DNA of 64,000 nucleotides from a virus, in the IMG/VR virus record IMGVR_UViG_3300030333_002778, positions 25,461 through 89,460 of that record; one strand, 5' to 3'. A program made the position numbers and the translations under genes. Positions 476 through 49,568 of the stretch are shown here, in pieces. How positions within the stretch are numbered: position 1 is the stretch's first letter; each line of letters starts with the position of its first letter. The notes under the pieces were generated by a model. That model was not told the origin of the DNA, did no database searches, and saw only the letters and a program-made list of their open reading frames with translations.

Positions 476-657
476 AAGAATCAGCATTTTATAATATAAA
501 TATGAAAGGTAAACGTGAACCTAATGAGTCTAGAGAAGACTATAAAGCACGTATGAGGGAGGTGAAAGAAAGAACAAAATTACATTTAAAAGGAAGAATA
601 ATATGGGACAGTAAAACTCTTGGTACATATATCAAGAAATTACATGGCCCATTATGA
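472..657 (+). CDS. Hypothetical basic protein (61 aa)
   Basis: This small, very Lys/Arg-rich protein contains a charged helical segment (NESREDYKARMREVKERTK) and a basic C-terminus. It has no recognised domain; the composition would suit a nucleic-acid-binding or accessory protein. Its start is coupled to the preceding membrane peptide (ATGA). Its stop lies five bases before the first helix of the structured non-coding region, so the RNA could be co-transcribed with it. Confidence 0.6.
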   Translation: MKESAFYNINMKGKREPNESREDYKARMREVKERTKLHLKGRIIWDSKTLGTYIKKLHGPL

Positions 658-660
658 TGT

Positions 661-1320
661 TGTGGGATGGAGTATATCGTAAGAATACTTGAGGATTTTT
701 AGTTGATTGTAATTATTTTTTGTCCTTTCATGCATCCCACTTATTAAAGGGGAATTTAGTATAGTGAGTGGCGCGTTGCTATACACATTTTTGCTGACAT
801 AATCTTGGATGGTTTCCCCAGTATACAAAGAGGAGTGCTCGATATAAGACGAGGTTATTCACGCATTCGTACATGTAGTTTTAAAAGTTCCATCTTAATT
901 CAAGCATGTGAGAGCTCCTCTGTGATATAAACAAAGAAAGACGGAAGACCGTTAGACTATTATTAATTATAATTGTAACAGGTTATAAACGTTAGTTTAA
1001 TAAAGAACGTCACTATGTAGAAAGAGGTTATCCATTTATCTTCGGATATTTCGATGAATGATCATTGTAATTGTGATCTGATAGATCTGTAGTTAATTCT
1101 ACGGGGAGAATCAGCATAGTTACCATAGACTGTCATGAAGTCTTTCACTTGTTTATGTATTAGCCAGTGATATGGATATAATAATAGATAAGCCGGCCAG
1201 CTTATCGCGGGAAAGTAATCCGTATTGGATGACTTAACACAATAGTGTTAAACCCATTATTATTGAAGTATCACTAGGCTGATACGCTTATAGCAAATAC
1301 TATTATCATTATGATAATGT
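661..1320 (+). ncRNA. Large ornate structured RNA (putative, unassigned class)
   Basis: No reading frame of note occurs here, the sequence is visibly richer in G and C than its surroundings, and inverted repeats are dense. The strongest element is an 18-bp helix, 1156-1173 with 1268-1286, with three or four G-U pairs and a single bulged A at 1276. It leads through a small internal loop to a second helix (1179-1186 with 1258-1265) that closes a four-way junction of three hairpins: 1187-1193/1200-1206, 1208-1211/1219-1222 and 1234-1240/1245-1251 (AATA loop). Other helices: 662-669/733-740, 749-754/814-819, 759-764/779-784, 829-835/915-921 continuing as 838-840/912-914, 941-944/949-952, 967-974/981-988 stacked on 989-993/1006-1010, a UUCG hairpin 1037-1040/1045-1048, 1086-1092/1099-1105 and 1127-1131/1139-1143. 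Strand is taken from the flanking genes. The ends are not defined: a poor promoter-like TTG...TATTTTTTG (689-722) could place the 5' end near 728, and the AT hairpin 1302-1318 may mark the 3' end. Size and phage location recall GOLLD and ROOL RNAs, but I cannot assign it. Confidence 0.72.
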
Positions 1321-1407
1321 ATAAATATTTAGTTATGTCTATTCTCATTGAATACAATATACATATCTAATGTTACAAGAATGTTAAATTAAAATTAAAT
1401 AATTATT
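1321..1407 (+). other. AT-rich leader upstream of the 79-aa gene
   Basis: These 87 bases between the last RNA hairpin and the next start codon have no gene. They end in an A-rich stretch (TTAAATTAAAATTAAAT) just before the ATG. Similar TTAAAATTAAAT-like runs precede the SSB start (about 8339) and the DNA polymerase start (about 2008). They probably act as an unstructured, SD-independent translation start region of Bacteroidetes type (inference). Confidence 0.35.
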
Positions 1408-1647
1408 ATGTTTTGGAAAGATGCAGTAAATAATAAATATAAACATCTGATGAATTTAGTACCAGATGTTAGAAAGAAAGCTAAACTCCCTTATTCTGTC
1501 AATGTATTAGACGAGAAATTGGTAGAGTTAGAAAAAGAATACAACCGATTACAAGAACTAGACGCTAGTGACAAAGATATAACAGAAATAGAAAACCTTA
1601 TAACAGATTTAAAAAGTTCCATAACTATATTGATTATTGGAACATAA
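1408..1647 (+). CDS. Hypothetical coiled-coil protein (79 aa)
   Basis: This small charged protein has a central heptad-like helix (about residues 35-70, rich in Glu/Leu/Lys) and a short hydrophobic C-terminus (SSITILIIGT). No family is recognised. It is the first gene after the structured RNA, opens with ATG behind an A-rich leader without Shine-Dalgarno, and is followed by another membrane peptide gene. Confidence 0.55.
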   Translation: MFWKDAVNNKYKHLMNLVPDVRKKAKLPYSVNVLDEKLVELEKEYNRLQELDASDKDITEIENLITDLKSSITILIIGT

Positions 1648-2022: not shown

Positions 2023-3894
2023 ATGAGTAAAATAGTATTAATTACAAATCAAAAACAAATAACGACTCCAAATTGTCCTTTTGAAATAGGAACAATGGAA
2101 GAGTGTGTAGATTATTTGAAAGGTCAACAATATATAGCTGTTGATACTGAAACTGAGGGTAAGGATTTCACCCGCAAAAAAATAGTAATGTTTCAAATAG
2201 GAACAAAAGAAATTCAATATGTTATAGATACTAGATATATATCTATAGAACCACTAAGAGATATACTTGAAGATACAGAATATCATGTAAAAATATTTCA
2301 TAATATTAAGTTTGATTATAAGTTTATTAAATCAAATTATAATATTGAAGTAGAGAATATTTATGATACTATGTTAGCTGAAGGTGTATTACATTGTGGT
2401 AAAGATAAGCACGGATACAGCCTTAACCGCCTAACACAGAGGTATTTAGGGGTGACGCTTGACAAAGAAGTTCGTAACAAATTTATAGGATTAGATGGTA
2501 AACCATTTACTGCTGAACAAATTTGTTATGGAGCTAAAGATGTACAATATTTGATTGAAATTATGGAGACTCAATTAGATCAGATATTTAAACTAGAATT
2601 ACATTATGTATTAATACTAGAAAATAAAGCAGCTTTAGCTTTTGCAGACATAGAATATAATGGTCTATGTTTTGATCAAGACTCTTGGCTTAAGAATGCT
2701 CAGGTAAATGAAACTGAAGTTACTTTACTCGAACAAGAATTGGATCAATGTATTGTTGATAATAATCTAGATGATTTTATTTCTAATCATGTTCAGCTTG
2801 ATTTCTTTACACCTGTTGAAGATCTTCGTAAAGTCAATGTTAAGTGGTCATCTCCTATGCAAGTTAAGAATGTAATGGAAAGACATTTAGATACATCACT
2901 TGAAAAAGTTAATGCATTTGAATTATCTAAATATAAAGATAGACCATTTGTAGGTAAATATCTTAAATATAAAGAAAAACAAAAGATATTAAGTACTTAT
3001 GGTAAATCTTTTCTTAAATATGTGATGAAAGATGGTAAAGTCAGAACAAGCTTTTGGCAAATATTAAATACTGGGCGTGTGTCTAGTGGATCTAAAGAGG
3101 ATCGTAAGCCTAATATGCAGAACATTCCAGCGAGGAATCAGTTTAGGAATTGCTTTCATGCAAGAGATGGACACAGTATTGTATCTGTTGATTACAGTGG
3201 GCAGGAGTTAGCTATTATTGCTTACGGTTCTCAAGATCCTGTTTGGATTAAATGTAGAAAGAATAATGAAGATCTCCATTCAGTATGTGCTGAATTAGTA
3301 TTTGGTGATAAATGGCATACAGGTGATAAAAAGAAATTAAGAAACATGATTAAGACTATTAATTTCGGATTAGCTTATGGTATGAGTAAGTTTAAATTAT
3401 CTGATACATTAAATATTGATGTAGATGAAGCTGATGAACTTATAAAGAAATACTTTAGCGCATTTCCTAATATAAAAGCATTTTTAAATAAACTTGGATG
3501 GTATGGTGTTATGAATGGTCATATTAAAACTTTTAAACCTTTTAGAAGAATTAGATGGTTTGAAAATTGGTATGCAGGTATACATAATTCATATAAAGAT
3601 TTCAAGATTAAAGGAGCGATTGAGCGTGCATCTAAAAATACTCCTATTCAAGGTACAGGAGCGGATATGATTAAACAATCTATGATTCTCATAAGAGAAG
3701 AGATTAAGAAAAATAATTATCCTTGTTACATGGTAACACAAGTACATGATGAAATAGGTGTAGAAGTTAAAGATGATTTCGCTGAAGAATGGGCTCATAT
3801 ACAATGTGAGTTAATGAAGAAAGCTGGTAAAATGATTGTTGATGGATTTGAAATGTCAGTTGATTATACAATAACTAAAAAATGGAGTAAATAA
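2023..3894 (+). CDS. Family A DNA polymerase with 3'-5' exonuclease
   Basis: This is the replicative polymerase of the phage. The N-terminal third is a DEDDy proofreading exonuclease: ExoI AVDTETEG (about residues 38-45), ExoII FHNIKFDYKF and ExoIII YGAKDVQYL. The polymerase domain shows motif A DYSGQELA (catalytic Asp near 390), motif B RNMIKTINFGLAYG (about 443-456), TPIQGTGADMIKQS, and motif C QVHDE (Asp near 576). All catalytic carboxylates are present. At 623 residues it is short, lacks a 5'-nuclease domain and matches phage polymerases more than bacterial Pol I. Its stop overlaps the next start by one base (TAATG), coupling it to the SF2 helicase. An A-rich leader without Shine-Dalgarno precedes the ATG. 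Confidence 0.96.
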   Translation: MSKIVLITNQKQITTPNCPFEIGTMEECVDYLKGQQYIAVDTETEGKDFTRKKIVMFQIGTKEIQYVIDTRYISIEPLRDILEDTEYHVKIFHNIKFDYKFIKSNYNIEVENIYDTMLAEGVLHCGKDKHGYSLNRLTQRYLGVTLDKEVRNKFIGLDGKPFTAEQICYGAKDVQYLIEIMETQLDQIFKLELHYVLILENKAALAFADIEYNGLCFDQDSWLKNAQVNETEVTLLEQELDQCIVDNNLDDFISNHVQLDFFTPVEDLRKVNVKWSSPMQVKNVMERHLDTSLEKVNAFELSKYKDRPFVGKYLKYKEKQKILSTYGKSFLKYVMKDGKVRTSFWQILNTGRVSSGSKEDRKPNMQNIPARNQFRNCFHARDGHSIVSVDYSGQELAIIAYGSQDPVWIKCRKNNEDLHSVCAELVFGDKWHTGDKKKLRNMIKTINFGLAYGMSKFKLSDTLNIDVDEADELIKKYFSAFPNIKAFLNKLGWYGVMNGHIKTFKPFRRIRWFENWYAGIHNSYKDFKIKGAIERASKNTPIQGTGADMIKQSMILIREEIKKNNYPCYMVTQVHDEIGVEVKDDFAEEWAHIQCELMKKAGKMIVDGFEMSVDYTITKKWSK

Positions 3895-15570: not shown

Positions 15571-15913
15571 CTTCATGTCCGGGATTTAATAGATATCTAA
15601 TCAATTTCCCCCTTTTTTCAGAACGCGACTTATTCGCTTTTGTAATATTATCTTTTATTTGTTTAATATCCGCGCATATTTCATACTCTTCTGTGCTTTC
15701 AAAATAATCTAATAGAACATCAAATACTGATCTATCTTCATATTCAGTTAAAAGCCAGAAAAAAGTATTAGGAAATATACTAAAGTCATAATTACTAAGT
15801 ATTAATCTATAAGTATTAATCATAGATGATCTTTTAATTATTTCTTTTTCTTTTTCACTAAATTCTTCTTCTTCTTCGAAATCATCGTTAAAATTATCAA
15901 AACTGTATTTCAT
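15566..15913 (-). CDS. Hypothetical acidic protein, last gene of the - strand block
   Basis: This 115-residue protein starts with an Asp/Glu-rich segment (DDFEEEEEFSEKEKE) followed by a helical region and ends in a basic patch. No family is recognised. Its ATG overlaps the stop of the giant RNA-polymerase protein by one base (TAATG), so it is translated from the same late message. A chaperone or small partner of the giant protein is possible but not shown. Confidence 0.65.
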   Translation of the reverse strand: MKYSFDNFNDDFEEEEEFSEKEKEIIKRSSMINTYRLILSNYDFSIFPNTFFWLLTEYEDRSVFDVLLDYFESTEEYEICADIKQIKDNITKANKSRSEKRGKLIRYLLNPGHEE

Positions 15914-18900
15914 TATTTAAGATCAAAGAATTTTATTTTATCTCCAGGATGTGTATTCCATTCCTTAAATGGTAATATTCTCTTAAAGTATTTACTTATT
16001 TTAGCATCTCCTTTATCATAACCTCTAGTCTTTCTCTTATATCTTTCAAAATCTCCACCTGTTAATACAGATGTTAAATCTGATGTACCTTGAGAGAAGA
16101 ATTTATATAATGCTTCTAGTCCAGACATACCTGCCATTGGTGTTCTTAATATATCAAAGAATGCAGTCGTAGGTAAGTAGAATAATAATTCTGATTCTAC
16201 CCTTTTGATCGTATATAAAGCCTGCCATTCTGCTCTACTAAGCTCATCATCTTCTTTATCTCCTCTTATTCTTCCAGGTAATATTAATAACAACATTAAG
16301 AAAGCTATTTCTCCTAGCGCTCTTTTTAAATTAGCTTTTTGCCATGTAGGTAATTCTTTATAACGTTTACCAAATTCAAAATTAAGTTGTCTAGCTTCTT
16401 TAAACATAGTAACTATAAATTTAGCCGCGGTTACATAGTTTCCTTCTACTTCAGACATCAATCTTTCATTATAATCTGCTTTTTTATAAGGAGATTTAGC
16501 ATCATAGATTACTTTTTCTATTCCTTCAAATCTTCTCATTGCTCCTGGTCTAAGCCATTTACGGAACTGCATAGCTGCTCTACCCATTGCATATTGTTGT
16601 AAAGCTGCTCTGTCTGATGAATTATAAATACCATGCATTCTTTGATAAACTGCTTTTACTCTTTCTATAAAATCAGTTTTATCTCTATGTGTAAATTGTT
16701 CTGCTACTTCAGGATTTAGTACTAATCTTTTATCTTTTACTTTATATGCATCCCATAGATTAATATATTTACCACTAGATAACTTAAACTGCATATTCAT
16801 CATTTGTGCAATAAATAATTGAGACTGTATTCTGTGCTCTCCAGCCGACATCATAAAATAAATAGCTCCTGGGTTTAAAGATCTAATAAAGAAATTTTTA
16901 TGGTCTATTCTTTGTCCCGCTTCATTAAAATTGGATAAAACATCAAAGTTTTCTAATAACATTCCTAATTTTGAAGTAGGTCTTCTTGATGCGACATCAT
17001 TTATTATTCCAGGTAATGATAAATTGTATTTAGCAGTACTCTTTCCATAAGTTTTTAAATTTAGATATTGTCCTGCAAAAGCTTCTACCCAGTTTAATAA
17101 CATACCAAACCCTGCATTAGATAAACCAACGTGTGGGTTTAATGCTAATACTCTTAATGCATTATAATTAATAGCAAGATCTACTAACTTAGTGTCTGTT
17201 ATCTGTCTAGTTCCTCCGCCTAATGTTTTAATAGTCGAACCTTTTTTCTTTTTCTTTTGATAAACAATCATATCTAAATAATCGTTAAATCTATCATAAG
17301 ATCTTGAAATTTCACCTGAATAAGTTATTTCTTCTCCAGTTACCTTATCTACTATAGGCATTCCTTTACCGCTCAGTTTTCTTACTTGTCTGTGTTTTAA
17401 TAATTCCTTAGTCATCTCTAACTCATTAATAATAGTTTGCATATTATTATAGTTATTAGCCATTGTAAAGAATTGTCTTAATGAGCTTCCCAAGTCGTAA
17501 GATACTTCTTCTGGAGTAAGATCAAAATTCTCACCAGTTCCTATCTTCAAAGTATAATGTGTAGGGACATAACTTAAAGGCTCTCCTGTTTTTGAAACTA
17601 TTTCACCATAAGATGTTTGATCATCCCCAACAGTAAAGTAATCTATAAGTGTTTCTTTAGCTGTTCTTTTTAGTTTTTTATCAGACTCTAATAATAACTC
17701 TGCTTTTGAAGCTCTAATAGATGGTAAGAAAAATCCTGTTTCTTCAGTCCCTCTTCTATATTGCTGTTCTAATAATGTATTAGCATATTTAAAGTTCTCT
17801 ATAAAATAATTATAGAATATTTTTCTTTGATCTCCTTCAGGTAATGCTTGTAATTTTTTATACTGCTCACTATATTCTATAGGATTATTTTTAAAGAAAT
17901 TAGACCAAGTATCTTTACTAGATAAATTTGTGCCATTTTGTATACTATCTCTAACAAATTTTCTTTTCTTTTCATACCATTCGTATGTATGCTGATTAAG
18001 AATTCTTCCAGTTAACTTTCCATCTTTAGTTTTTTCAAGCATAAAATCATAAAGCTCTCTAAAACTATTTGTTCCTACCCCTTTTGAAGTTTGAAATGCT
18101 TCTAACTTCTTAATACGTTCATACAATCCTATATCCTCTTTACCTGTCCCGTATAAAAACTTTTGTTCTTGTTCATGTGTTTTATATACTTGTTCTTTAA
18201 CTAATTTATCAACAGCTGCTAATACTGAATCTTTAGAATCCCCCATAGCATCTAGCCATCTAGCTAATAAACTAATATCTCTTCCCGCTTTTACTAATTC
18301 ATTTTGTATAAACTCTTCTTTATTTTCAATTCTAGGATCTGAAATATAATCAGATAAGAAATTTGCTAATAAAGGTCTTCCTAAAGCTTTATATAATTCA
18401 TATACTTTTTGTCTTTTATAAATAGCAGGAGCTACAATTTCATTTATTTCTTGTTCGTAGCCTTCGTTAGCTAATAGCGGAGCAGCTAATGATATTTCAT
18501 CTAACATATCATATGTCTGAACAAATTTTAATACTTTATTCAGCTCTGGTATATTAACAGAACTAGTTGTTTCAAGTTCTCTTAGTTTATTGTATGCTGC
18601 ATCAATATCTGCATTAGCTCTTCTCATAAATAGAATAAGCCCTTCTTTTTCTCCGATCTCATCTAGCTTTCCAAGTAAATCTTTTAATCCTGTTACATAT
18701 TCTTTTGCATCTTTTTGTCGTTGTAATGAAGCTATTTTCTTTTTAAGATTGTTCTTAGCTGTTTCAAATATTTGCGATATCCTATCAGTCTCTTTATTAG
18801 CTTCTGCTTGAGCTCTTTCATTATTTGGATTTAAAAAGTTAAACATGTTTTTTAATGTCTTGTTCTTTATAGGCTTAAGCTTTTTAAGTTTAGAAGCTAC

Positions 18901-21900
18901 AGGACTAGCTGGATTTAATAAATCAACACTAGTCATAATTACTTCTCCTGCTTTATTAATTGTAACATCAGCTTCTAAGCCTACTATATTCATTTCGTCT
19001 ATTTTTATTCCTTTATTCTGAATAATATATCTATATAGCGAAAGTTGTAATCTATACTGATTAAGTAAGTTATTAGGAATTGTAGCTAAAGGGCCTGTAA
19101 AAGATGGTAATTGAGACTCTAATGTTAAGAATTTACCTTTCATTTTAGTTTTAAAGTCATGTATAATTCTTTTTCCTGTAGATGTAACCTCTATAATATC
19201 TACTTGACCTCCAATAATATCACTTTTATCTGCTACTTTTGTTTCCGTGTACAATCTACTTCCAGCTGTTATTTTAGATCTAACCCAAGCTCTTAGTTTA
19301 GGTAAGTTCTTATTAATAGCAGCTTTAGAACTAGTATCTAGATTTAAAGAATCTATTATTTGTTTATCCGTTAAGTTATTTACAATACCTTCCATGGTTT
19401 TGTGTAATTGCGTACCAACACCATCTTTTAAGAATTCCCATAATTTTTCTACTTTTTCAGATGTATTAAAAGGATTACCTGCTCTTCTATTAGCAGCTGC
19501 TACTTTTTCAGCTATTTCTTTAGAAGCAAATGGTTTAGAGAAAGCTTCTATAAAAGAAGTCGTTCTATTTAATTTTATACCATCTAATTCATAGAAATTA
19601 TTTTCAGTAGTAGGATCTTGAATCCTATTACTTTCATTAATCATCTGTGAAAAGTTTTGTTTTTGATTGTTTAAAGCATAGTACTTTTCTACTCCTAAAT
19701 TATCTATATTTAAACCGGTTATATCTCCATTTAATATACGAGAAGCCATAGGTCCAAATACATTATCTAATTGTTGTCTAAGCTCATCTTTTGCTTCTTG
19801 GTTTCTAGTAAATAATGCTTTTATTTGGTCCCATATTTTTCTTAACGTTCCTATGAATCCTTTGTATTTTTCTCTAACCTGCTGTTCATTTACTATATAT
19901 TCAGCTAATATCTTACCTGCAGTTTCTTTTTGGAATTGATAGTCTTCTGTATATAATTTTTCATAATCTTTTACGACTTGGCCGTATAAATCTGTTTTAG
20001 AAGCTAGTGCTAATAGTCTTTGAACTGTAGGCTTATCTTCTAATGCTTCTATAAAGAAGTGACTTAATTCCTCTGGTACAGTATATCTATCTCTATTCTG
20101 ATCTAAATACATAATTCTATTAAGCATATCAGCTGCACCTACTGCATCTACACCTAATTTTTTCTTAAGATTATTAATAGTTACTGCTTTAACTCCAAAA
20201 TGTTTTTCAGCAAATCCTATTAAATAATTATCTAGATCTTTCAAAGCAGACTCTTTCATTTCTGGGCTTAATCTATATTCAAGTGTATTATTTCTACTTG
20301 TTATAGACCCTGAATCAAACATATTTGTTTGTGGTTGAGTATTTTGCTCTGTTTTATTGGCAGGATGGATACTTTCGTATCTTTCTTGCGCATACATTTC
20401 TACAAATCTGTATCTTTCTCCTAAAGGAGGTATTTCTTGGTATATTGCACCATTTAAATTCCCTGAATTTGTTTCGCTAGCAGCTAAAAATTTATATAAT
20501 CTCCATTTACCTGCATTATATGATCTAAAATAATGTACAAATTCATTTGAATTTGGAACAGCACCTTCAATTATAAGATTTGGGTTTTGACTTTTATGTA
20601 AATAATGTTGATTAGCCTTTAAATTATGCGCTTTAATTAATTGCGGAGTTCTATGAAGAACTTTTTTATCTGCTATTTTTAAGAATCCAGGATCTGTAAA
20701 CATATTTCTAATAATCTGATGAGTAGCATTTAAGAAATACTGATCATTCCACATTGAATTAGCCTCTGTTCTAAAGTAATTAGTCAATCCTGAAGATTTC
20801 CAATAGGATACTGGAACAAGATCTACAAAAGAATTAGGTCCTTTCATTAATCCTGAAGTAACAATAGAATACGATATTAAAGATTTAGCTAAATTTGCTA
20901 CATCTTCTCTAGGGTCTAATAATAATTCGGCCCATCTATCTGTTATCTCTGATCTTTCTGATGGGTCTAGTTTAACACTATTATTAAATGCTATTAATTG
21001 TATAAATTTATCAGAACTTAAGTTATCAGGATGTGCATATAATAAGCCTAAGAATGGGTCATTAAATAAGTCGTGTTTCTTTTTAATTTTAGCTAACCTA
21101 GAAGCTAATGATTTTTGGTATTTGAATAATACGTTTTCAAGACTTTTTGTTCTAACTTCTCCTGATTTAGTATAAAATAATCCTCTCATAGGAGAATCAG
21201 GTTTAATTACAGAGAAATATAAACCTAAACTATTAATAGTATCTATATTTTGTGGTGATAATATACCATCTTCTTGACCTGTTAATTGTGCTATATTTCT
21301 TTTTAATTCTATAAACCCATTTTTATTAAATGGAATAAAGAAACTTGTAAATTCATTAGCGGATTCTATACCATATGTTATGTAAGACTGTACTCTCTTA
21401 GGTATTTTAGTAATTTCTATAGCAGATTTACTACTTTGTATATAATCTACATTATCCATAAATTGTTCTAGGTAACTTAATCTACTAAATCGTTTTATAC
21501 CATCTGGTGATAAATATCTATTACTTTTTGAAACATCTTTTGCTACTTTTAAGTATCTCATAAAGTCACTTAAAATTTGTATTTGTTTTTTAAGATCTGC
21601 TTCATTTGAAAGATCTGCTTGTAAACCTGTATCATTTAAATAAGATGCAGTAGGAGTAAATTCTATTAGATTTTTTCTATTTATATTATTATAATAATCT
21701 AGTTGGCCTAATTGTTCTGCAGTAGTTCTAGCAATTTGAGCATGATTAGTAAAAGCAGGCGCATTTTTTACATTTTGTTCTAATTTTCTTATAATAGGCT
21801 GATTTATAAAATCTAATGCAGTTTCAACATTAAATCCAGCTCTATTTAGTATAGCAATTACTCCATGGTTAAATAGAGTTACACCTGCACGACCAATTCT

Positions 21901-24900
21901 TAAGTTTTTAGCATTATCTAAAGACTCACTCTGATGTGCAGCTATATAATTTAATATATATTCTCCATCAAAACCTTTTATTTTTGTCAGATCTACATGT
22001 GATGAAATATTATTTGCTCTTATGTTTATAGAATACTCTGGTTTTATTGTCATATCAGTAGACTGTGAAAGCGCGCTTCCTACAGAATGGTTTGAAAATG
22101 CTCCAATTAATGCAGCTGCTTGTTTATTAACCTCTTCTAAGTACATTTGACCTGAAGTACTAAATAAATTTAACCTACTCATTGTAGGAATTATACCTAA
22201 TCTTTCGTATTTATTAATTAGATTTACATAAACATCTGTATCTAGAGGATTCATAACCTCTTCTACATGATTTTTAGAAGTTAGAATAGTATAATTTATA
22301 TCATATATTAAATTATCTAAAGCTTTTGTAGATACGCCATCAAAATTTTGTTTTTCTTTATATTTTACATAATCAAAAGCTGAAATCTTTTCTCCATTAT
22401 TTGTTAGTTCGGGGAACATTAAGAACATTTTATCAATATCAAAATCAGCTCCCATTTTATTTACAACTTCAGTAGGTAATATTACTATACCACCCGCGTT
22501 CTCTGGTAAGACTTCTACTATTTCTAATGCCATCATAGAAACTTTTAATTGTGTAGGAATCCTATAACCAATAGATGTAAGTGCTTCTCTAGTTATGTTA
22601 TTTTTAGCTAGATATTCTTCTGTAACTACTCCTGCAGGTAAATTATATTTAGCTCCTAATTGATAAGGTAATTTTATTTGAGCTACAAAACCTCCGTTTT
22701 TAGTAGGCTTTATAGTAAGTTCATCTGAAAGTTTATGTCCATACTGAGCTATTTGAATAGCCCCCATTCCTTTTGTTTTCTGTCTTAAAACTCTATTTTT
22801 ATATAGATTATTTAAAATAGACTCAAATGTTTTTGCAAATGTAGGAAAAGAAAGAGGTGCTTGGAAATCATATCTAGTTTCTATATTATCAATTATTTCG
22901 TCTATATTTAATATCAAATAATAATTATCCTCTAATTCTCTTTCGTTTAAAGAATTTTCTAATATACCTCTAACCTTTAAAAGAAATTTTTTCTGATCTT
23001 CATAGTACTGATTAAATTCAGCTGCACCTTTTATTTCATCTCTATTTTCATATCGTTCCTTAAACTCTTGCCAACCCATTTCTTTTACTAATCCATCATG
23101 AGATCTTTTTATTTTTTCTGCAAATGCACTATCATATAAATCTCTTATTTGATCTCCTTTTATAGAAATACCATTTAATGTGTAATTAAAATTAGACTCT
23201 ATATTAGCAGTAATAAGTTTACCAAATTGAGTTCCATATAATTGTTTTTTAGCTTTAAAATCAACTACTTGTGGTGATCTTAGATTTCTAGTATCTAACT
23301 CAGTTACTACTATATCTTTTAATTGTTCTTGAGTTGTTGGATTTGATATACCAACAGCTCCTGTCTTAACTGCAGACTCAAAACTTACCATATCTATTTT
23401 CTTAAGACCGCTGTATTTACCTACAGCTTCCATACGTTGTCTTAAGTTATTTATCGTTACTGATTCTGAGCTATCTTTTTCATTTTCTGTCATCTCTCTT
23501 AATAATGGATAAACAGAGTGTTTAATTTGCTCCCATACTAGAGTTTTTCTACCATTATTATCTTCTACTATTCTATCTCCCCAATAAAAAGTTTTTAAAG
23601 GATCAAATAATAGTTTTTTAGATTCTTTATTTCCTAGTTTTCCTTTTGACCAATATTTCTCATAGTATACTCCATGCTTTTCAGGTATCCATTTACCCTG
23701 GGACTCTAAATAAGATTTATAAAATTCTATAGTAGAAAAACTTTGCGCATCTGTTTTATTTAGATTGGCAAATTGGTCTGCTATTTGATCAGCCTTTTTA
23801 GAACCGGCTTCTTTCAATGCTTTACGTATATTCTCAACTAATGTAGGATCTTTTTTATATACATCTTTAAATATAGAATGTGATATAGTATTACTCATAC
23901 CATACTTTCCTATTACAGGATCAAATCCAGGAGTTATACCTGCATAATTTCTTTTACCCGCATCTATAAATATATTACCTGTATTATCTGCTTTATAAAA
24001 TGCAGGATCCCCCATCATCATAGTATATATATGAGGTAAATAAACAATATCATTAATAGCAAATTCTACCAAAGCTGGCATAATATTTGTATTAATAGTC
24101 TTTCCCTGTAAACTTTTAGGAGGTAATAATATATTCTTATATGTATTATCTTTTTCGTTCTTAGAAACTATTCCTTCTTTTTCAAATTTGTTTAAAGTCT
24201 CTGTTATATTTTGTATAACATATTCTCTGAGTTTATTTTTTATCTCTTTAACGGCATTACTCATCTGCTCTTGACTAGCAGTATTTGAGTCTCTTAACAT
24301 TCCTAACTCAGTATAGAAATCTATATTATTTAAAGTAGGAAATATAATAAATCTTAATCCATTTGCATTTTTTCTATCACTCATATGATCTCCAGGCTCA
24401 TTTTTATAATGATAATTCTGTATCATACTTTCTCTGCTTATTTTATTATCTCCAAATAATTGGTCTTGAACTTTTAATATTCTACCATACTCTCTTAAAG
24501 CTAGCGGATATAATAAATCTACTGCAGTATCTACAAATTGATTAGCTTGGTTAACACTAGTGCCATTCCAAGTTATATGACTAGATCCTGGATATATTCT
24601 AGGTAATGCCATATACATAGATTGCATTTTATCAGATCTAGTTCCTATATTTATTTTAGTAAAAGGCTGACTTCTATCAGTAAAAAAAGCCCATCTAGTT
24701 AAAAGAGATTGTTGTGGATTTAAATCTTTATAAGATGTTGATCTTCCTTTATATCCTGCTTCCTTAAGAGAGTCTAATGTAACTATACTTAATTTTTCTC
24801 TAACATTATCAAATTTTTCTATAAGATCAAGGATTAAATGATCTTCATAGAATGTATCTTGTTTATATTTATTTATAGCGCTTTCATAAGTATTTTTACT

Positions 24901-27900
24901 TCTTAGTTCTAATACTCTTTTAGAATCAAATGTATTTAGATTAATAGCATATATATTTTTACCATTACTATGGAAAGAAGCTAAGGCTTTATCTACTTTA
25001 AAGTTAGATGCTAATTGAGCAAACTTATTTAAAGACCCCATTTCCATATCTCCTGCAACAAATGGGCTGATTCCTTTTCTTAATTTAGCTAGTATATGTG
25101 AATAAGAATTTGATCCTGACATATACTTATGTAAGTCTCTAACAAAAACTTCATCATTATTATATAAACTATTATAAGCTTCATTAGGAATTAATATACC
25201 AGTTCTATCTAGTATTTTTTTCATCTGCTCAATATACTTCTTCTTAACTTCTCTATGAGCATTCATCTCTTTTTGCTGATCTCCTTCTTTTACAATAAAC
25301 TTTAGATTTGACCATAAGTCAAATATTTCTTTAGCTGTAGACTCATTTATAGTATCTTGTTTACCTTCTTGTATATTAAATAGATCTGTAGTTACTTCTC
25401 TATTTCCTATCCAATCATTGATAATCATTCTATTAAAACTATTTCTATTTGCATAGACTAGTTTTATCATACCATCTTGAATAATAGGAATTTCAAAATC
25501 TATAAGTTGATCATTCATATGGGTTATAAACTTATTTTTAAAAGCCGGTGACCCATTATTTATTCTATCCAATACAACCTCCGCTATTTTATTATCCTCT
25601 GCTAATAGCTCTAATCTATTCATTACATCTCCCTGTGGAGTATTCGCTAATGCAAATTTTAAATAAGAGTAAACTTCAGAGAATGAGTAGAAACTTTTTT
25701 CTCCTAATAAACCTCCTCTAGACCCATCATTTTTTTGTATTAAAGATAGTTCTATTTTTACATCTTTAGATAATGTAGCTTTTCTAGGTCTCTCAAAGAA
25801 ATTTATCCCATGAATATGTTGCGCTGTTTCTAATTCTGCGTTTTCTAAATCAGTTTCAAACTCTTCTGATGCTGCTATATCAGATGTATTTTCTTCAGAA
25901 ATATCTATTTGTTCTTCTATTTCAGCATTTTGAGTTTCTATTAATTTTCCAGACTCTTTAAATCCGAATCTTACACCAAATACTGTTAAGTTTCTAACAA
26001 CAAGATCTCGGAATCCGGGGCTAACAACATTTATATTATTTTCATCAAATTGACTATAAAAGTTTTCTTGTAATGCTGCTTTTGACCATTCTTCTCCTTG
26101 TTCTATTCCTGCTTCTGTCATCTGCTCACCTATCCTTTCCATATTTTGTCTTGCAGCTTCTAGTTTTGCTACTAATATTTTAGGATCTGTTAATTTTTCT
26201 AGCCATAAATCACCATATTCTTTCTGATAAGCTTCTCGCATCTTATTAGTAATCACATCTACAATTTCATTCTTTTGAATATTAGTATATCCAGGCTTTT
26301 GTCTTAGTTTATACGCGACTGTTGATCGTTCTCTTAATTCTTTAGTAGTATACTTATTATAGTTTCTAGAACTTAAATCACTAAACATCTCATTAAGAGT
26401 AAGATCCATACCTAAGAATTTCTTTATGTATGTCATAATATCCTTAAAGAATTTAGCTATGGTTCCTATTAAACCTCTATTTTCTTGAGTAATTCTATAC
26501 TCCATAAAAGATTCCGCTAATTTTGTTTCAAGCTCTTGTTGATTTTGTATACCCCACTGTTGTTGAGCAGCTTTAAATAAAGAAGATTTTTCATTAGCAG
26601 TTAAATGTAAATCTATTATTCTTCGCATAGCTTCCCAATAAGCTGTACCTTTCTTAGCAAATTGTGCTAATGTTACCATACCCTGATGGTAATATCCATA
26701 AGCTTGACGACCATCTTTTAAAGTAATATACTTAACTCTTGCAGCTATTTCTAATCCCTCTTCACCAAACTTATCAATAAACCATTGTACTTCTTCTTCA
26801 GATAATAAAAGATTAGATTCTGGATTAACTTCATATTGTCTTAATTTAAAATCAGTATCTATATCATCACGAGATTTTGTAGGAGGCTTCTTTTTAGGCG
26901 CTTTTTTTATTATTTCCTTCTTTTTATTCTTTTTTTCCATCTGTTCTCTTGCAAAATTATCTAGATTTTGCATTTTACTAGGGTCAAAAGATGGACTATA
27001 CTTATTATCTATCTGAGCTTGTGGATCAAATCCAAATAAATTAGAATTTTGATTAAATTCAGGCCCTTTATTTAAGAAATCTGGGACTTTTTTTGGATTA
27101 GATTTAAATTTTTCTTCAGTAGGCTCTACATAAATATTAGAATTATAGAACTGTTGAGATCCATTAGCTGGAATATCTGTTGAAATAGGTAATATATTAG
27201 GATCTGTTAAGTATTCAAAATAAGAATTCCATGACCCTAGTTTAGATTGAAAAGGATCTTTCATCATTTCCATTCTAGCCTTCTGAATATTATATTTCTT
27301 ACTCATAAGATGTTCAACTAGTGCTTCTCTTATACTTTTTCCACTCAGATCTAGAGTTTTAGAACTTATATATTTATTTTTTCCTTGTTTTTTAACAGCT
27401 CCTGTTTCTTTATCGTATTCAACAAAGAAAAATTCAGGATTGTATGATAAATTATGTCCATTAAGAGCTGTTAGAAAATTATTTCTTTTATTTTGTCCTG
27501 CAGCACGGTATTGTAATCCAATAATTTTATCTTTATATGGAAATACTATTTCAAAATTATCAAACACAAGTCCTGGAGCATTCTTGCTATACGTTCTTAC
27601 AGTATTAACTATTTTTTTAATCTCACTTTCTATAGTAGCCGGAGTTAAACTATAGTCTAATATAATTTCAATAACTGCATCAGCTGCTTCTTGACTTAGA
27701 TTAGATGTAGATAATCTAACAGGAGTAAGTATTCCGTTTGCTCTTTTAATAGCAGCATATATAGCACCATGCTCTATAAAAGTAGAAATATCAAAATCCA
27801 TATTATTTTTTTGCCATATAATAACACCTTCATTTTTATTACCATATCCTAATATTAATGAATTAGCATCTCCGAGTACACTTATAGGCTGTTCTATAGA

Positions 27901-30900
27901 TTTACCATCCTTTTTTAATCTTAATACCCAACCGTTTCCTTTACCTGCAATCTTACCTTTTATATCTTTTAGTTCTTTTTGCTTTGCAAATATTTCTCTT
28001 ATACGGGTATTTTCTTTAGAAAAAGCGCTGATTCTAAGTTGTCCTAGATTTACAGTAGGATCAGAAGCTAAACGAATACTAATAACCATTTTAGTAGGAT
28101 CATTAGATTTATAAAACTCATTATTAGGTTCTGGTCTTAATATAATATCAGTCCCTACTCCTATATTAGGATCATTAATAGCCTGAAAATCAAATATTTC
28201 ATTATTATTTCTAACATTAGAATCTTTTCTAATAACTAATGCATTACCCTTTTTATCTGTAAGTATCTTAGGGCCCGCATTATCTTGTAATACAATTCTT
28301 TTACCTTCTCTTACTATATATCCACTGCTATTTAATCTAGGAGGATAGTAATATAATACTTGATATTTACGATCAAATTCTTTTCTGTTTTCTGTCAAAA
28401 GCTTATTCATAGCTTCTGTCATAGGAATCATTTTCAATGTAGATTTTGGTACAGGATTACCATTACTATCTACAACTGTAACAACTACAGCTTCATTGTG
28501 AGGACCTACACTTTCAAGACCATAACTCATAAATTGAGGAGTCATCGCAGTACCTTTAGTTTCTTTTAAAGTTTTTTCATCTAAAACAGTAGGATTAGAT
28601 GTGGTAGTAGGAGTAGTTTTAGTTTCATCTGTCTTAGAACTTTCTGCATTTTCTGCAGCCTTTCTCATTTTGTTCTTTTGTTTCTGCTGATTTAGTTGAT
28701 CTTTCTCTTTATTTAGTATGTCTTTCTGCTCCTTATTCATCTCCATATTCAGCTTTTCTATTCTATCTATTTCATCTTGCTTCTCTTTAGCTTCTTTTAG
28801 GGCTTGTTGTAAGGCTTCTTTATTTTTTAAAGACTGTTGTATTTGTAACCACTCGTTCTTAATCTTTGTTGCTGCTTCTTGAAATCTAGCATTGTCAGGA
28901 TGTTGTAACATCCATTGATCTATATCTTCCTCAGTTACTTTTTCTTTTACTATAAAATCTCTAAAATCTTGTATTAGTGCATCGGTTGCTGATTCAGCAG
29001 CTGCTTGCTCTATAGAAGGTTTAAGAACTTCATCGAGATCTTTTTTCTCCATAGTAGTTAACTCCTTTCCCGACTCTAGTTTATTTATATTTTGTATTTG
29101 TTTTAAAGCCATATCCCTTAGCGCTCTATATTGTGCTTGTCTATGTCTTTTTCTAAGTACATCTCCATTTTCTACCTCTTCTAAAAACTTCTCTTCTTCT
29201 TGGAATTGCTCTGGAGTTAATATCTCTGATGACTCACTCTTTAATTTATCAGAAACTACTTCTAATTCGCTTATGTAACCTTCTAACTCTTTTATTTGTT
29301 CCTGCATAGAGTTAATAAGCTTATCATTCTTTTCTCTTTCTGATTGAGGAGTATCTTTAAGATTATTATATTGCTCTAAACCTTCTTTATTTTCTATTAA
29401 TTGCTCTAAAGCTAGTTTAGAAGCTTTAATCTGCATGATCAGATTATGTCTCATTTTTGTTTGAGCTCCTAGTTGTTTGTATTTTTCTTGAGAGTAGATA
29501 TCTGATTCTAGATCTAATTCAACTTGTTCATTAATCTCATTTATCAGATTTTGATATATTTGCACAGCCATTTGTTGCTGCGCTACTCTAGCAGAAATAC
29601 CAGGACCATACTTGGCTCCAAAAGGACTTTTAAAATATTTATTATAAGCAGTACTTGCTTGCTCTATTATACTTAGCATATCTGCTTTTACATCTTTTAT
29701 TTGTTCTTGAGTAATACCAGCATCAGTAAGAATTTCTTCCATGATCGGGTCTTCCATCATTTCTTTTAAAAGATCTCCATTATTAACTAGTTCATTATTC
29801 ATAGCTAAATTAACTGCCAATAATCTTTGTAACTGCTTAACCTTATAAGTATCTCCTTTTTCTTGAGCTTCTTTCATTTGCTCAGAAACATTAGCAAGCA
29901 TTTCCATTCTTTTAGTAATAGCTTGTATCTTAGCCTGCTCTTGTTTTTTATAAGCTTTACGATTCATAAGACCTGCACCGGCTGTCATCACAGCACCTCC
30001 TGCAAATCCCATAATACTAGATGACCAAAATCCACCCTGAGTAGAATACTTTCTAAGACGACTAAGTAAACTATCATCTGTCATAGTATCTCTACCAACA
30101 TCATCAAAACCTGCTAAAAGATCTCCTTGTAGAATACCTTCTTGCATAGCTATCCAGTTAATTTGCTCTTCTATAGCTTCTGTATAAGACCATAAACCAA
30201 ACTTTGCTAAGGCTTTAGCTTTTGGCTTAATCCATTTACCTACTTTACCTAATCTTGTTTTTGGTATTACAGTTTTTGGGGCTTTTAATGTAGCATCTTG
30301 AGCCGTTCTAACAGCTGAAGAAGTAGCTCCTTTACCTCTATATTTAGCACGACCAAACATTAAACCATATTGTGCAATATCAAAAAATGCATTAGTCCAA
30401 TCCCATTTAAAAGTATGAGCTGCAGCATGAGATGAAATATATCTTGCAGCCGCATCAGCAAGAGCTGGATCATTTAAAGATATTCCAGACTCTTTTAAAA
30501 ATTGTTGGCCTCCTTCTGATTCTAAAAACTCATCTAAATTTTTTTGATTTTGGAACCAAGCAAGATTCTTTTCATAAGATAGTAATCCAGTTTCCGCAGC
30601 TTCTCTATAATTCTCCATATATCTCATAGACACACCCCCTACTACTGCTTTTGTCATCCAGTCTGTAGTTTTATTACTAAATAATTTTCTATCTAAAAAC
30701 TTACCTGTATTTGCTATTCTTGAATACTTACTTGCTCTAGCAGCATTATTAACAGCTTTTAAAGGTCCCACACCTGCAAATTTACCGGCTTTTGTTACAG
30801 CCCATGCAGGAAAAAATAACGATAGAGCAGATCCTATCGATACCATATTATTATACCACCAACCTGAGTCATTAGGTTGCCATGAAGAACCTGGATACAT

Positions 30901-31374
30901 TTCATATATAGGGGTAACTTCTTTTGTCCATTCTCTTATTCCACCCCCTAAATCTGAAATAGCATTAGTAAAACCATCATTTATATCTAAATTTATTAAA
31001 TCTAATAAAGATCCGAATCCTTCAATAGTACCCCCAACTATTTCTCCTATTACAAATTGATTTAAAAAACTAGTAAATTGGTCCCAACCAGTTTGTCTAC
31101 TAGCACGCATCATATCTATTTGAGATGGATCACTAACCCCAAAATCTACATCTGGCCAATCATAAAAATTAGTATTATATGTAACACCTTGATGCATAGA
31201 AGGATCCTGAAATCCTAAATCTACACCGTGGATATAATCCTGTAGACTTAAAGGATCTGCAGCTGCACTGGCTTTTTTAGGCCCACTTATTTTCTTCTCT
31301 GAATTTCTTTCAGGTAATTGTGTAATAGGGTCTATACCTTGAGTCTGTGTTTGTATAAAATCTTGTAATCCCAT
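15913..31374 (-). CDS. Giant 5153-aa virion RNA polymerase fusion with nuclease domain
   Basis: The strongest block is at residues 2938-2983: an R-x-PT motif (GYRIPTQ), then after 35 residues GADFDIDKM (Asp 2977, 2979, 2981). This mirrors the NRAPTLH...NADFDGDQM active-site segment of RNA polymerase beta prime, in the DxDxD form used by crAss-like virion polymerases such as phi14:2 gp66. Other parts: a hydrophobic N-terminal 150 residues; a Lys/Glu/Gln coiled coil (about 480-960); a zincin-like segment GTAYWEAMRRI near 1576 and another, VPEELSHFF, near 3766, both lacking the metal His pattern; a PD-(D/E)XK nuclease with GTQLHKTMEG (3987), GGQVD (Asp 4059), DFKTK (4073-4077) and QLSLY (4110-4114); and a hydrophobic stretch near 5022. 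It would be packaged and injected to transcribe early genes. In most relatives these functions are in two or three proteins. It follows the two cargo-type genes with a 9-base gap. Confidence 0.9.
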   Translation of the reverse strand: MGLQDFIQTQTQGIDPITQLPERNSEKKISGPKKASAAADPLSLQDYIHGVDLGFQDPSMHQGVTYNTNFYDWPDVDFGVSDPSQIDMMRASRQTGWDQFTSFLNQFVIGEIVGGTIEGFGSLLDLINLDINDGFTNAISDLGGGIREWTKEVTPIYEMYPGSSWQPNDSGWWYNNMVSIGSALSLFFPAWAVTKAGKFAGVGPLKAVNNAARASKYSRIANTGKFLDRKLFSNKTTDWMTKAVVGGVSMRYMENYREAAETGLLSYEKNLAWFQNQKNLDEFLESEGGQQFLKESGISLNDPALADAAARYISSHAAAHTFKWDWTNAFFDIAQYGLMFGRAKYRGKGATSSAVRTAQDATLKAPKTVIPKTRLGKVGKWIKPKAKALAKFGLWSYTEAIEEQINWIAMQEGILQGDLLAGFDDVGRDTMTDDSLLSRLRKYSTQGGFWSSSIMGFAGGAVMTAGAGLMNRKAYKKQEQAKIQAITKRMEMLANVSEQMKEAQEKGDTYKVKQLQRLLAVNLAMNNELVNNGDLLKEMMEDPIMEEILTDAGITQEQIKDVKADMLSIIEQASTAYNKYFKSPFGAKYGPGISARVAQQQMAVQIYQNLINEINEQVELDLESDIYSQEKYKQLGAQTKMRHNLIMQIKASKLALEQLIENKEGLEQYNNLKDTPQSEREKNDKLINSMQEQIKELEGYISELEVVSDKLKSESSEILTPEQFQEEEKFLEEVENGDVLRKRHRQAQYRALRDMALKQIQNINKLESGKELTTMEKKDLDEVLKPSIEQAAAESATDALIQDFRDFIVKEKVTEEDIDQWMLQHPDNARFQEAATKIKNEWLQIQQSLKNKEALQQALKEAKEKQDEIDRIEKLNMEMNKEQKDILNKEKDQLNQQKQKNKMRKAAENAESSKTDETKTTPTTTSNPTVLDEKTLKETKGTAMTPQFMSYGLESVGPHNEAVVVTVVDSNGNPVPKSTLKMIPMTEAMNKLLTENRKEFDRKYQVLYYYPPRLNSSGYIVREGKRIVLQDNAGPKILTDKKGNALVIRKDSNVRNNNEIFDFQAINDPNIGVGTDIILRPEPNNEFYKSNDPTKMVISIRLASDPTVNLGQLRISAFSKENTRIREIFAKQKELKDIKGKIAGKGNGWVLRLKKDGKSIEQPISVLGDANSLILGYGNKNEGVIIWQKNNMDFDISTFIEHGAIYAAIKRANGILTPVRLSTSNLSQEAADAVIEIILDYSLTPATIESEIKKIVNTVRTYSKNAPGLVFDNFEIVFPYKDKIIGLQYRAAGQNKRNNFLTALNGHNLSYNPEFFFVEYDKETGAVKKQGKNKYISSKTLDLSGKSIREALVEHLMSKKYNIQKARMEMMKDPFQSKLGSWNSYFEYLTDPNILPISTDIPANGSQQFYNSNIYVEPTEEKFKSNPKKVPDFLNKGPEFNQNSNLFGFDPQAQIDNKYSPSFDPSKMQNLDNFAREQMEKKNKKKEIIKKAPKKKPPTKSRDDIDTDFKLRQYEVNPESNLLLSEEEVQWFIDKFGEEGLEIAARVKYITLKDGRQAYGYYHQGMVTLAQFAKKGTAYWEAMRRIIDLHLTANEKSSLFKAAQQQWGIQNQQELETKLAESFMEYRITQENRGLIGTIAKFFKDIMTYIKKFLGMDLTLNEMFSDLSSRNYNKYTTKELRERSTVAYKLRQKPGYTNIQKNEIVDVITNKMREAYQKEYGDLWLEKLTDPKILVAKLEAARQNMERIGEQMTEAGIEQGEEWSKAALQENFYSQFDENNINVVSPGFRDLVVRNLTVFGVRFGFKESGKLIETQNAEIEEQIDISEENTSDIAASEEFETDLENAELETAQHIHGINFFERPRKATLSKDVKIELSLIQKNDGSRGGLLGEKSFYSFSEVYSYLKFALANTPQGDVMNRLELLAEDNKIAEVVLDRINNGSPAFKNKFITHMNDQLIDFEIPIIQDGMIKLVYANRNSFNRMIINDWIGNREVTTDLFNIQEGKQDTINESTAKEIFDLWSNLKFIVKEGDQQKEMNAHREVKKKYIEQMKKILDRTGILIPNEAYNSLYNNDEVFVRDLHKYMSGSNSYSHILAKLRKGISPFVAGDMEMGSLNKFAQLASNFKVDKALASFHSNGKNIYAINLNTFDSKRVLELRSKNTYESAINKYKQDTFYEDHLILDLIEKFDNVREKLSIVTLDSLKEAGYKGRSTSYKDLNPQQSLLTRWAFFTDRSQPFTKINIGTRSDKMQSMYMALPRIYPGSSHITWNGTSVNQANQFVDTAVDLLYPLALREYGRILKVQDQLFGDNKISRESMIQNYHYKNEPGDHMSDRKNANGLRFIIFPTLNNIDFYTELGMLRDSNTASQEQMSNAVKEIKNKLREYVIQNITETLNKFEKEGIVSKNEKDNTYKNILLPPKSLQGKTINTNIMPALVEFAINDIVYLPHIYTMMMGDPAFYKADNTGNIFIDAGKRNYAGITPGFDPVIGKYGMSNTISHSIFKDVYKKDPTLVENIRKALKEAGSKKADQIADQFANLNKTDAQSFSTIEFYKSYLESQGKWIPEKHGVYYEKYWSKGKLGNKESKKLLFDPLKTFYWGDRIVEDNNGRKTLVWEQIKHSVYPLLREMTENEKDSSESVTINNLRQRMEAVGKYSGLKKIDMVSFESAVKTGAVGISNPTTQEQLKDIVVTELDTRNLRSPQVVDFKAKKQLYGTQFGKLITANIESNFNYTLNGISIKGDQIRDLYDSAFAEKIKRSHDGLVKEMGWQEFKERYENRDEIKGAAEFNQYYEDQKKFLLKVRGILENSLNERELEDNYYLILNIDEIIDNIETRYDFQAPLSFPTFAKTFESILNNLYKNRVLRQKTKGMGAIQIAQYGHKLSDELTIKPTKNGGFVAQIKLPYQLGAKYNLPAGVVTEEYLAKNNITREALTSIGYRIPTQLKVSMMALEIVEVLPENAGGIVILPTEVVNKMGADFDIDKMFLMFPELTNNGEKISAFDYVKYKEKQNFDGVSTKALDNLIYDINYTILTSKNHVEEVMNPLDTDVYVNLINKYERLGIIPTMSRLNLFSTSGQMYLEEVNKQAAALIGAFSNHSVGSALSQSTDMTIKPEYSINIRANNISSHVDLTKIKGFDGEYILNYIAAHQSESLDNAKNLRIGRAGVTLFNHGVIAILNRAGFNVETALDFINQPIIRKLEQNVKNAPAFTNHAQIARTTAEQLGQLDYYNNINRKNLIEFTPTASYLNDTGLQADLSNEADLKKQIQILSDFMRYLKVAKDVSKSNRYLSPDGIKRFSRLSYLEQFMDNVDYIQSSKSAIEITKIPKRVQSYITYGIESANEFTSFFIPFNKNGFIELKRNIAQLTGQEDGILSPQNIDTINSLGLYFSVIKPDSPMRGLFYTKSGEVRTKSLENVLFKYQKSLASRLAKIKKKHDLFNDPFLGLLYAHPDNLSSDKFIQLIAFNNSVKLDPSERSEITDRWAELLLDPREDVANLAKSLISYSIVTSGLMKGPNSFVDLVPVSYWKSSGLTNYFRTEANSMWNDQYFLNATHQIIRNMFTDPGFLKIADKKVLHRTPQLIKAHNLKANQHYLHKSQNPNLIIEGAVPNSNEFVHYFRSYNAGKWRLYKFLAASETNSGNLNGAIYQEIPPLGERYRFVEMYAQERYESIHPANKTEQNTQPQTNMFDSGSITSRNNTLEYRLSPEMKESALKDLDNYLIGFAEKHFGVKAVTINNLKKKLGVDAVGAADMLNRIMYLDQNRDRYTVPEELSHFFIEALEDKPTVQRLLALASKTDLYGQVVKDYEKLYTEDYQFQKETAGKILAEYIVNEQQVREKYKGFIGTLRKIWDQIKALFTRNQEAKDELRQQLDNVFGPMASRILNGDITGLNIDNLGVEKYYALNNQKQNFSQMINESNRIQDPTTENNFYELDGIKLNRTTSFIEAFSKPFASKEIAEKVAAANRRAGNPFNTSEKVEKLWEFLKDGVGTQLHKTMEGIVNNLTDKQIIDSLNLDTSSKAAINKNLPKLRAWVRSKITAGSRLYTETKVADKSDIIGGQVDIIEVTSTGKRIIHDFKTKMKGKFLTLESQLPSFTGPLATIPNNLLNQYRLQLSLYRYIIQNKGIKIDEMNIVGLEADVTINKAGEVIMTSVDLLNPASPVASKLKKLKPIKNKTLKNMFNFLNPNNERAQAEANKETDRISQIFETAKNNLKKKIASLQRQKDAKEYVTGLKDLLGKLDEIGEKEGLILFMRRANADIDAAYNKLRELETTSSVNIPELNKVLKFVQTYDMLDEISLAAPLLANEGYEQEINEIVAPAIYKRQKVYELYKALGRPLLANFLSDYISDPRIENKEEFIQNELVKAGRDISLLARWLDAMGDSKDSVLAAVDKLVKEQVYKTHEQEQKFLYGTGKEDIGLYERIKKLEAFQTSKGVGTNSFRELYDFMLEKTKDGKLTGRILNQHTYEWYEKKRKFVRDSIQNGTNLSSKDTWSNFFKNNPIEYSEQYKKLQALPEGDQRKIFYNYFIENFKYANTLLEQQYRRGTEETGFFLPSIRASKAELLLESDKKLKRTAKETLIDYFTVGDDQTSYGEIVSKTGEPLSYVPTHYTLKIGTGENFDLTPEEVSYDLGSSLRQFFTMANNYNNMQTIINELEMTKELLKHRQVRKLSGKGMPIVDKVTGEEITYSGEISRSYDRFNDYLDMIVYQKKKKKGSTIKTLGGGTRQITDTKLVDLAINYNALRVLALNPHVGLSNAGFGMLLNWVEAFAGQYLNLKTYGKSTAKYNLSLPGIINDVASRRPTSKLGMLLENFDVLSNFNEAGQRIDHKNFFIRSLNPGAIYFMMSAGEHRIQSQLFIAQMMNMQFKLSSGKYINLWDAYKVKDKRLVLNPEVAEQFTHRDKTDFIERVKAVYQRMHGIYNSSDRAALQQYAMGRAAMQFRKWLRPGAMRRFEGIEKVIYDAKSPYKKADYNERLMSEVEGNYVTAAKFIVTMFKEARQLNFEFGKRYKELPTWQKANLKRALGEIAFLMLLLILPGRIRGDKEDDELSRAEWQALYTIKRVESELLFYLPTTAFFDILRTPMAGMSGLEALYKFFSQGTSDLTSVLTGGDFERYKRKTRGYDKGDAKISKYFKRILPFKEWNTHPGDKIKFFDLK

Positions 31375-49537: not shown

Positions 49538-49568
49538 CAAAAATAAACAAATTTATTAAAACGCCAAA
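49538..49568 (-). promoter_or_regulatory. Bacteroidetes-type promoter after the giant adhesin gene
   Basis: On the minus strand TTTG (49565-49568, inside the last codons of the adhesin gene) is followed after exactly 19 bases by TATTTTTG (49538-49545), an exact TAnnTTTG. The predicted start is near 49531, about 40 bases before the next ATG. The spacer shares GTTTTAATAAATTT-type sequence with the promoter at 38126-38156. Confidence 0.65.

Follow-up and report, generated by a model that had tools for sequence, protein, structure and literature searches.

A conserved, covarying + strand RNA structure without an Rfam counterpart in a lineage of probable crAss-like phages

To our knowledge, very few large ornate phage RNAs have been described. 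GOLLD is phage-encoded, often lies near tRNA genes and forms a 14-mer RNA nanocage. GOLLD and ROOL are both RNA-only nanocages, while OLE forms dimers via a palindromic GGCC kissing loop (PMC12286853). OLE belongs to Gram-positive, extremophilic or anaerobic bacteria and not to phages (PMC9723947). The RNA analysed here is not described in the literature that we covered on GOLLD and on crAss-like phages with structured RNA or tmRNA, most papers in subscription journals being outside that coverage.

The original prediction left open whether the locus encodes a divergent GOLLD or ROOL member or a new class of RNA. Neither model matches, and a search with the covariance models of GOLLD, ROOL, OLE and other large RNAs found no family in Rfam; the new class is upheld by a core (helix P1, the P2/P3 motif and the terminal hairpin Pt with its bulged A) which can be placed in order in 15 sequences. 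At the gathering threshold and at E<=10, the window and its homologues gave only weak chance matches, far below the cut-off, to eukaryotic, plastid or CRISPR-repeat families. No group I or group II intron, riboswitch, tmRNA or other Rfam RNA gave a gathering-threshold match or a credible match at E<=10, and GOLLD, ROOL and OLE were absent among the matches at E<=10 to the window and the relatives L010 and L026. With the ROOL model (RF03087, 99.1-bit gathering cut-off) no match was obtained in 14 records, the control being also without a match, and the Rfam scans of the window and its relatives contained no ROOL match either.

The phage and its gene-free stretch

The window, that is, the whole stretch of 64,000 nucleotides analysed, corresponds to positions 25461-89460 of a virus record that is 89,460 bases long (its own genome, G000). 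The best annotated matches of its DNA polymerase (Table 1) are in Crassvirales (cr108_1, crAss001) with identities of only 26-31%, so the phage probably belongs to the crAss-like group without falling into any named genus. Contigs of relatives were grouped by the identity of their polymerase to that of the window: clade I (77-79%) comprises L001-L005 and L026, clade II (~65%) comprises L006, L008-L012, L014, L016, L017, L020, L023 and L024, and clade III (~46-51%) comprises L057-L075 in part. The window also contains two very large ORFs (15913-31374 and 49556-61999 (-), 5153 and 4147 aa), the second of which has no PHROG match.

The stretch from the end of one ORF at 657 to the start of the next at 1408 contains no ATG-started ORF of at least 35 aa on either strand, the longest stop-free runs being 56 codons on the + and 67 codons on the - strand. 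A conserved reading frame, which the original prediction had named as incompatible with its proposal, was looked for, and none is kept in a consistent frame across the homologues of the RNA. The predicted fold of 650-1330 has an energy of -182.4 kcal/mol (z -6.4 on the + strand and -7.5 on the - strand; 0 of 20 shuffles equal it), the core (920-1292) has a z of -5.3, and the two homologues folded (L010 and L012) have z values of -4.3 and -3.8. The - strand folds well too, which perfect helices would lead one to expect, so that folding energy alone cannot assign the strand. The proposal of about 660 gene-free bases in dense helices, folded beyond chance, is therefore borne out, the more so as the covariation score described below is matched by 0 of 500 shuffles. 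The proposed span (661-1320) holds as gene-free, folded RNA but not at its 3' end, since the RNA extends past 1320, where a hairpin (1329-1370) is nearly invariant in clade I. A promoter scan gave results at chance level.

The gene that follows the RNA (1408-1647) is not part of it, since some relatives have a different gene in this position. Gene order differs in a further respect (472-657 and 1408-1647): the RNA is located 3' of a 61-aa ORF in the window and 5' of the homologue of this ORF in clade I relatives.

Table 1 Coordinates of the RNA, its helices and domains, the neighbouring genes and the tRNA-like elements
Feature	Position	Strand	Remarks
Structured RNA, inferred extent (ends not mapped)	655-1375	+	Gene-free; homology to L001, L002, L003, L004/5, L026; folding z -6.4
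Domain D1, three-way junction	661-741	+	Outer stem 662-669/733-740
D1 hairpin, GUAA (GNRA-type) tetraloop 679-682	~670-690	+	GUAA in all clade I sequences compared
D1 hairpin, facing U tracts 696-700 and 716-721	691-727	+	Kept in clade I
Variable-domain hairpin (GAGGAGUGCUC / GAGAGCUCCUC)	829-923	+	Inverted repeat; elsewhere seen only in L002
P1 5' strand, long-range central helix	927-942	+	Covaries with 1140-1156 in 14 sequences; strand-swap test
P2/P3 core	950-1009	+	P2 CGUU 950-953 / AACG 1006-1009; P3 968-973/982-987
P4 hairpin, UUCG loop 1041-1044	1028-1057	+	By-eye comparison of clade I: stem kept, tetraloop not
P1 3' strand, abuts terminal hairpin	1140-1156	+	Covariation; strand-swap test
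Terminal hairpin Pt	1157-1285	+	1157-1173 with 1268-1285; bulged A1276 conserved
3' hairpins (~1297-1321; 1329-1338 with 1361-1370)	1297-1370	+	Clade I alignment: nearly invariant
Next gene 3' of the RNA	1408-1647	+	79 aa, no family known; differs among relatives
Family A DNA polymerase	2023-3894	+	PHROG 17, E 1e-99; genomic anchor for finding relatives
tRNA-like element, window's own genome	G000:7352-7430	-	Outside the window; ~19 kb from the RNA, other strand
tRNA-like element, clade I	G001:86674-86750	-	New RNA directly downstream
tRNA-like element, clade I	G003:14485-14561		New RNA directly downstream
Further tRNA-like element	G015:19192-19273
Further tRNA-like element	G017:5274-5356
Further tRNA-like element	G018:11226-11308	-
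Further tRNA-like element	G019:1188-1270

Homologues, architecture and covariation

The RNA is homologous by sequence in 6 close relatives (clade I), 1156-1286 being its conserved 3' domain. The stretch 1150-1400 of the window is 77-89% identical to clade I relatives, while the 5' half is far more divergent and shared in parts, such as 828-937, which matches L002 3899-4015 with 75% identity (blastn). R1, a covariance model that covers 1150-1321 and was derived from clade I sequences only, matches eight clade II loci (L016, L006, L023, L024, L017, L020, L008 and L011; E 8e-5 to 1e-2) and, more weakly, L010 and L009, all of these on the + (coding) strand in the gene-free gap upstream of the polymerase; the core motif and the terminal hairpin served to identify L012 and L014. 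The RNA is present in every clade I and clade II contig whose sequence covers enough of the region upstream of the DNA polymerase.

R1 has no match in the clade III loci, in crAss001 or in cr111_1, and a weak match in cr108_1 (E 0.06) was taken as chance. Blastn against annotated phages yielded short matches only (E 0.8 or worse), and searches with the core motif, including all viral contigs, detected members in clades I and II only; two pattern matches were judged to be chance, one (L033, Shewanella) located inside a predicted membrane-protein gene and the other (L032, a 428-kb phage contig) in a place where the other parts of the RNA are absent. As far as seen, the new family does not extend beyond a single crAss-like lineage, whose phages are known from metagenomes. 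Two other kinds of gene-free sequence were observed in these contigs. A second conserved element of 75-86% identity occurs in members of all three clades (L014:2277-2362, L071:2815-2902 and L025:376-438, the last just left of the window), and clade III contains long, mutually related gene-free stretches with strong predicted folding and no R1 match (L071:2642-3590, L072:3166-3842 and L074:3082-3810).

All members have in common a core in which P1 closes the P2/P3 domain beside Pt. In clade II the core is only ~250 nt long; clade I members have in addition the three-way junction and a variable region on the 5' side, and further hairpins on the 3' side that were not recognised in clade II. P1, the most important helix of the RNA, is a long-range helix spanning ~200 nt that was absent from the helices listed in the original prediction. 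P2 flanks the hairpin P3 and a conserved unpaired motif (AGNCURYAY ... UAAAG). Pt encloses the helix 1179-1186/1258-1265, a hairpin (1187-1206) with a CGGCCA loop that contains a GGCC palindrome, is found in clade I only and is invariant there, and a GGG/CCC helix (~1209-1211 with 1253-1255), for which L003 provides one two-sided change. For the 5' domains (D1, the variable region and P4) the basis is five or six related sequences; across these few clade I sequences the three-way junction of D1 is kept on changing stem sequences. The facing U tracts of D1 resemble the U-rich loop of ENE triple-helix elements.

The helices proposed at the outset fared differently. The 18-bp helix (1156-1173 with 1268-1286) exists, with A1276 as its single bulged A, which the homologues carry as well, and so does the junction-closing helix (1179-1186 with 1258-1265). 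The supposed perfect four-way junction is not retained, as the GGG/CCC helix turns it into two nested three-way junctions. Of two directly adjacent hairpins the first (967-988) stands, whereas the second (989-1010) is more likely part of P2, because the homologues covary there. A hairpin with a UUCG tetraloop is present in the window, but its loop is not conserved: the apparently equivalent hairpins of clade I relatives, compared by eye, have GAAU, GAAC, UUUA or GUAG.

The order of segments (P1L, P2L with the motif, P3L, P3R, UAAAG with P2R, P1R, PtL, PtR) is identical in 15 sequences. Covariation was counted on 14 distinct rows and 33 pairs (462 cells), the strands of P1, P2 and P3 having been chosen with pairing in mind, so that only Pt and the P1 swap test are free of that choice. 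Among these cells 99.6% pair, and two-sided changes occur in 18 of the 33 pairs. Covariation scored 0.560, compared with 0.206 +/- 0.018 for shuffles (0 of 500 reach it) and at most 0.067 for slid partners. P2 occurs as CGUU/AACG, CGUG/CACG, CCAG/CUGG and CCUG/CAGG; two-sided changes are found at all 6 pairs of P3 and at 6 of the 17 pairs of Pt. The comparison of homologous regions from related phages, through which the original prediction expected its helices to be supported, has thus revealed compensatory changes in two clades.

Because the segments of P1-P3 had been selected knowing that they should pair, P1 was tested separately: the 42 nt that precede P2 and the 26 nt that precede Pt in each sequence were hybridised in all combinations. 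The mean energy with the own partner was -18.0 kcal/mol versus -6.6 kcal/mol with partners from the other clade, and in 13 of the 14 sequences no strand surpassed the own partner (in L012 the own partner came second, behind that of its close relative L014). When L010 and L012 were folded without guidance, the minimum-energy structures of both contained P1 and Pt, and that of L010 also P2 and P3. In Pt, which is independently anchored, 23 G-U pairs stand against 0 A-C pairs, which identifies the + strand as the folding strand. At the level of sequence comparison, these results demonstrate a conserved, covarying RNA structure on the + strand, of a family that is not in Rfam.

Proposed role and alternative explanations

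We propose, with somewhat better than even confidence, that the locus encodes a new family of stand-alone, highly structured + strand RNA, probably GOLLD- or ROOL-like in role. The RNA is predicted to be transcribed together with the early or replication genes, and would fold by itself as a structural RNA of the GOLLD or ROOL kind and probably assemble with its own copies to form a cage or scaffold that serves during infection. Candidate self-assembly contacts are the conserved GUAA tetraloop and the GGCC loop invariant in clade I, a type used for loop-loop kissing; since the latter is found in clade I only and never varies, kissing is not demonstrable by covariation. As a cis-acting leader, the RNA would be a very large element of the 5' UTR, resembling a riboswitch or an attenuator, through which the downstream early operon, the DNA polymerase included, is controlled. 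This would fit the constant position of the RNA upstream of the polymerase operon on the same strand and the end of Pt 31-37 nt before an ATG in most clade II members. We consider a leader unlikely, however: the first downstream genes, 31-151 nt after Pt, belong to five unrelated families, which argues against a gene-specific leader, the size and the multi-domain build would be unusual, and no terminator-like site was found on the + strand within the RNA. The varied downstream genes, together with the lack of a kept frame, favour a stand-alone RNA over a leader. Alternatively, such an RNA might not self-assemble: by binding the ribosome or a protein of phage or host, it could act as a primer, decoy, regulator or ribonucleoprotein scaffold. 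The nearly invariant 3' sequence of clade I and the unpaired AGNCURYAY ... UAAAG motif are candidate protein-binding sites, and the RNA is located among replication genes; nevertheless, the conserved tetraloop and the palindromic loop fit RNA-RNA contacts equally and no partner is known, and we regard this role as conceivable but rather doubtful.

Descent from GOLLD or ROOL, with the RNA as a highly divergent member of the same family, might be suspected from the phage setting, the size, the conserved 3' and variable 5' parts and the tRNA-like neighbour, as in GOLLD-bearing relatives. It is very improbable, given that the GOLLD model (RF02032, 150-bit gathering cut-off) is silent in G000 and in the clade I and II records searched while clearly positive in four clade III records (202-214 bits), that R1 conversely has no match in GOLLD loci, and that the scans at E<=10 described above detected no GOLLD, ROOL or OLE. 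The adjoining polymerase/helicase module and the long inverted repeats could also point to a DNA element (a replication origin, packaging or recombination site) with hairpins acting in single-stranded DNA; the strand-asymmetric wobbles of Pt and the nested, multi-domain, RNA-type covariation leave little room for it. Finally, any AT-rich stretch folds somewhat, but, with the z of -6.4 and the covariation score reached by none of the 500 shuffles, chance folding has a negligible probability.

Comparison with GOLLD, ROOL and OLE

The RNA appears to be a separate family, and the collections that we searched describe no RNA of this kind for its lineage of crAss-like phages. Its compact form of ~250 nt is handy for structural work. 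It shares with ROOL (RF03087) the character of a large phage or prophage RNA of unknown function, but the ROOL model is unmatched here. Its palindromic GGCC hairpin loop is like that of the OLE L9.3 kissing loop (PMC12286853), although this likeness of 4 nt could be coincidence and Rfam gave no OLE match.

GOLLD (RF02032) is likewise a large phage-encoded RNA of the same broad phage lineage with a conserved 3' and a less conserved 5' part, a distribution that the window RNA also has. It differs in that its model leaves the clade I and II records unmatched and, as far as seen, in its helices and conserved motifs; moreover, the clade II core of the new RNA is only ~250 nt long. Bona fide GOLLD loci were located at L078:1501-1886, L079:1501-1939, G018:10416-10813 (-) and G019:2748-3145. 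Both RNAs have been seen beside tRNA or tRNA-like genes, the new RNA in two records. The tRNA-like element is ~80 nt long and corresponds to the tRNA-like part of a tmRNA, the mRNA part being absent; its scores against RF00023 reach 52.7 bits, and three of the elements exceed the cut-off. A role in trans-translation, as a decoy or a partner, is conceivable. In the four clade III GOLLD records it lies ~0.4-1.5 kb upstream of GOLLD on the same strand; it is adjacent to the new RNA in G001 and G003 only (both clade I), and in others a tRNA-Met is found a few kb away. Neither the GOLLD model nor R1 links the two RNAs, yet the new RNA occupies an equivalent position in G001 and G003. Because GOLLD in distant relatives and the new RNA in two clade I phages both lie beside the tRNA-like element, the new RNA may take the place of GOLLD there. 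Their shared neighbour is a testable hint of a common job, and we tentatively raise the possibility, itself well short of an even chance, of an unrelated cage- or scaffold-forming phage RNA family that replaced GOLLD at an equivalent site. If this is true, phages have repeatedly evolved RNA nanostructures, GOLLD and the present RNA among them, to serve a single common purpose connected with a tRNA-like RNA.
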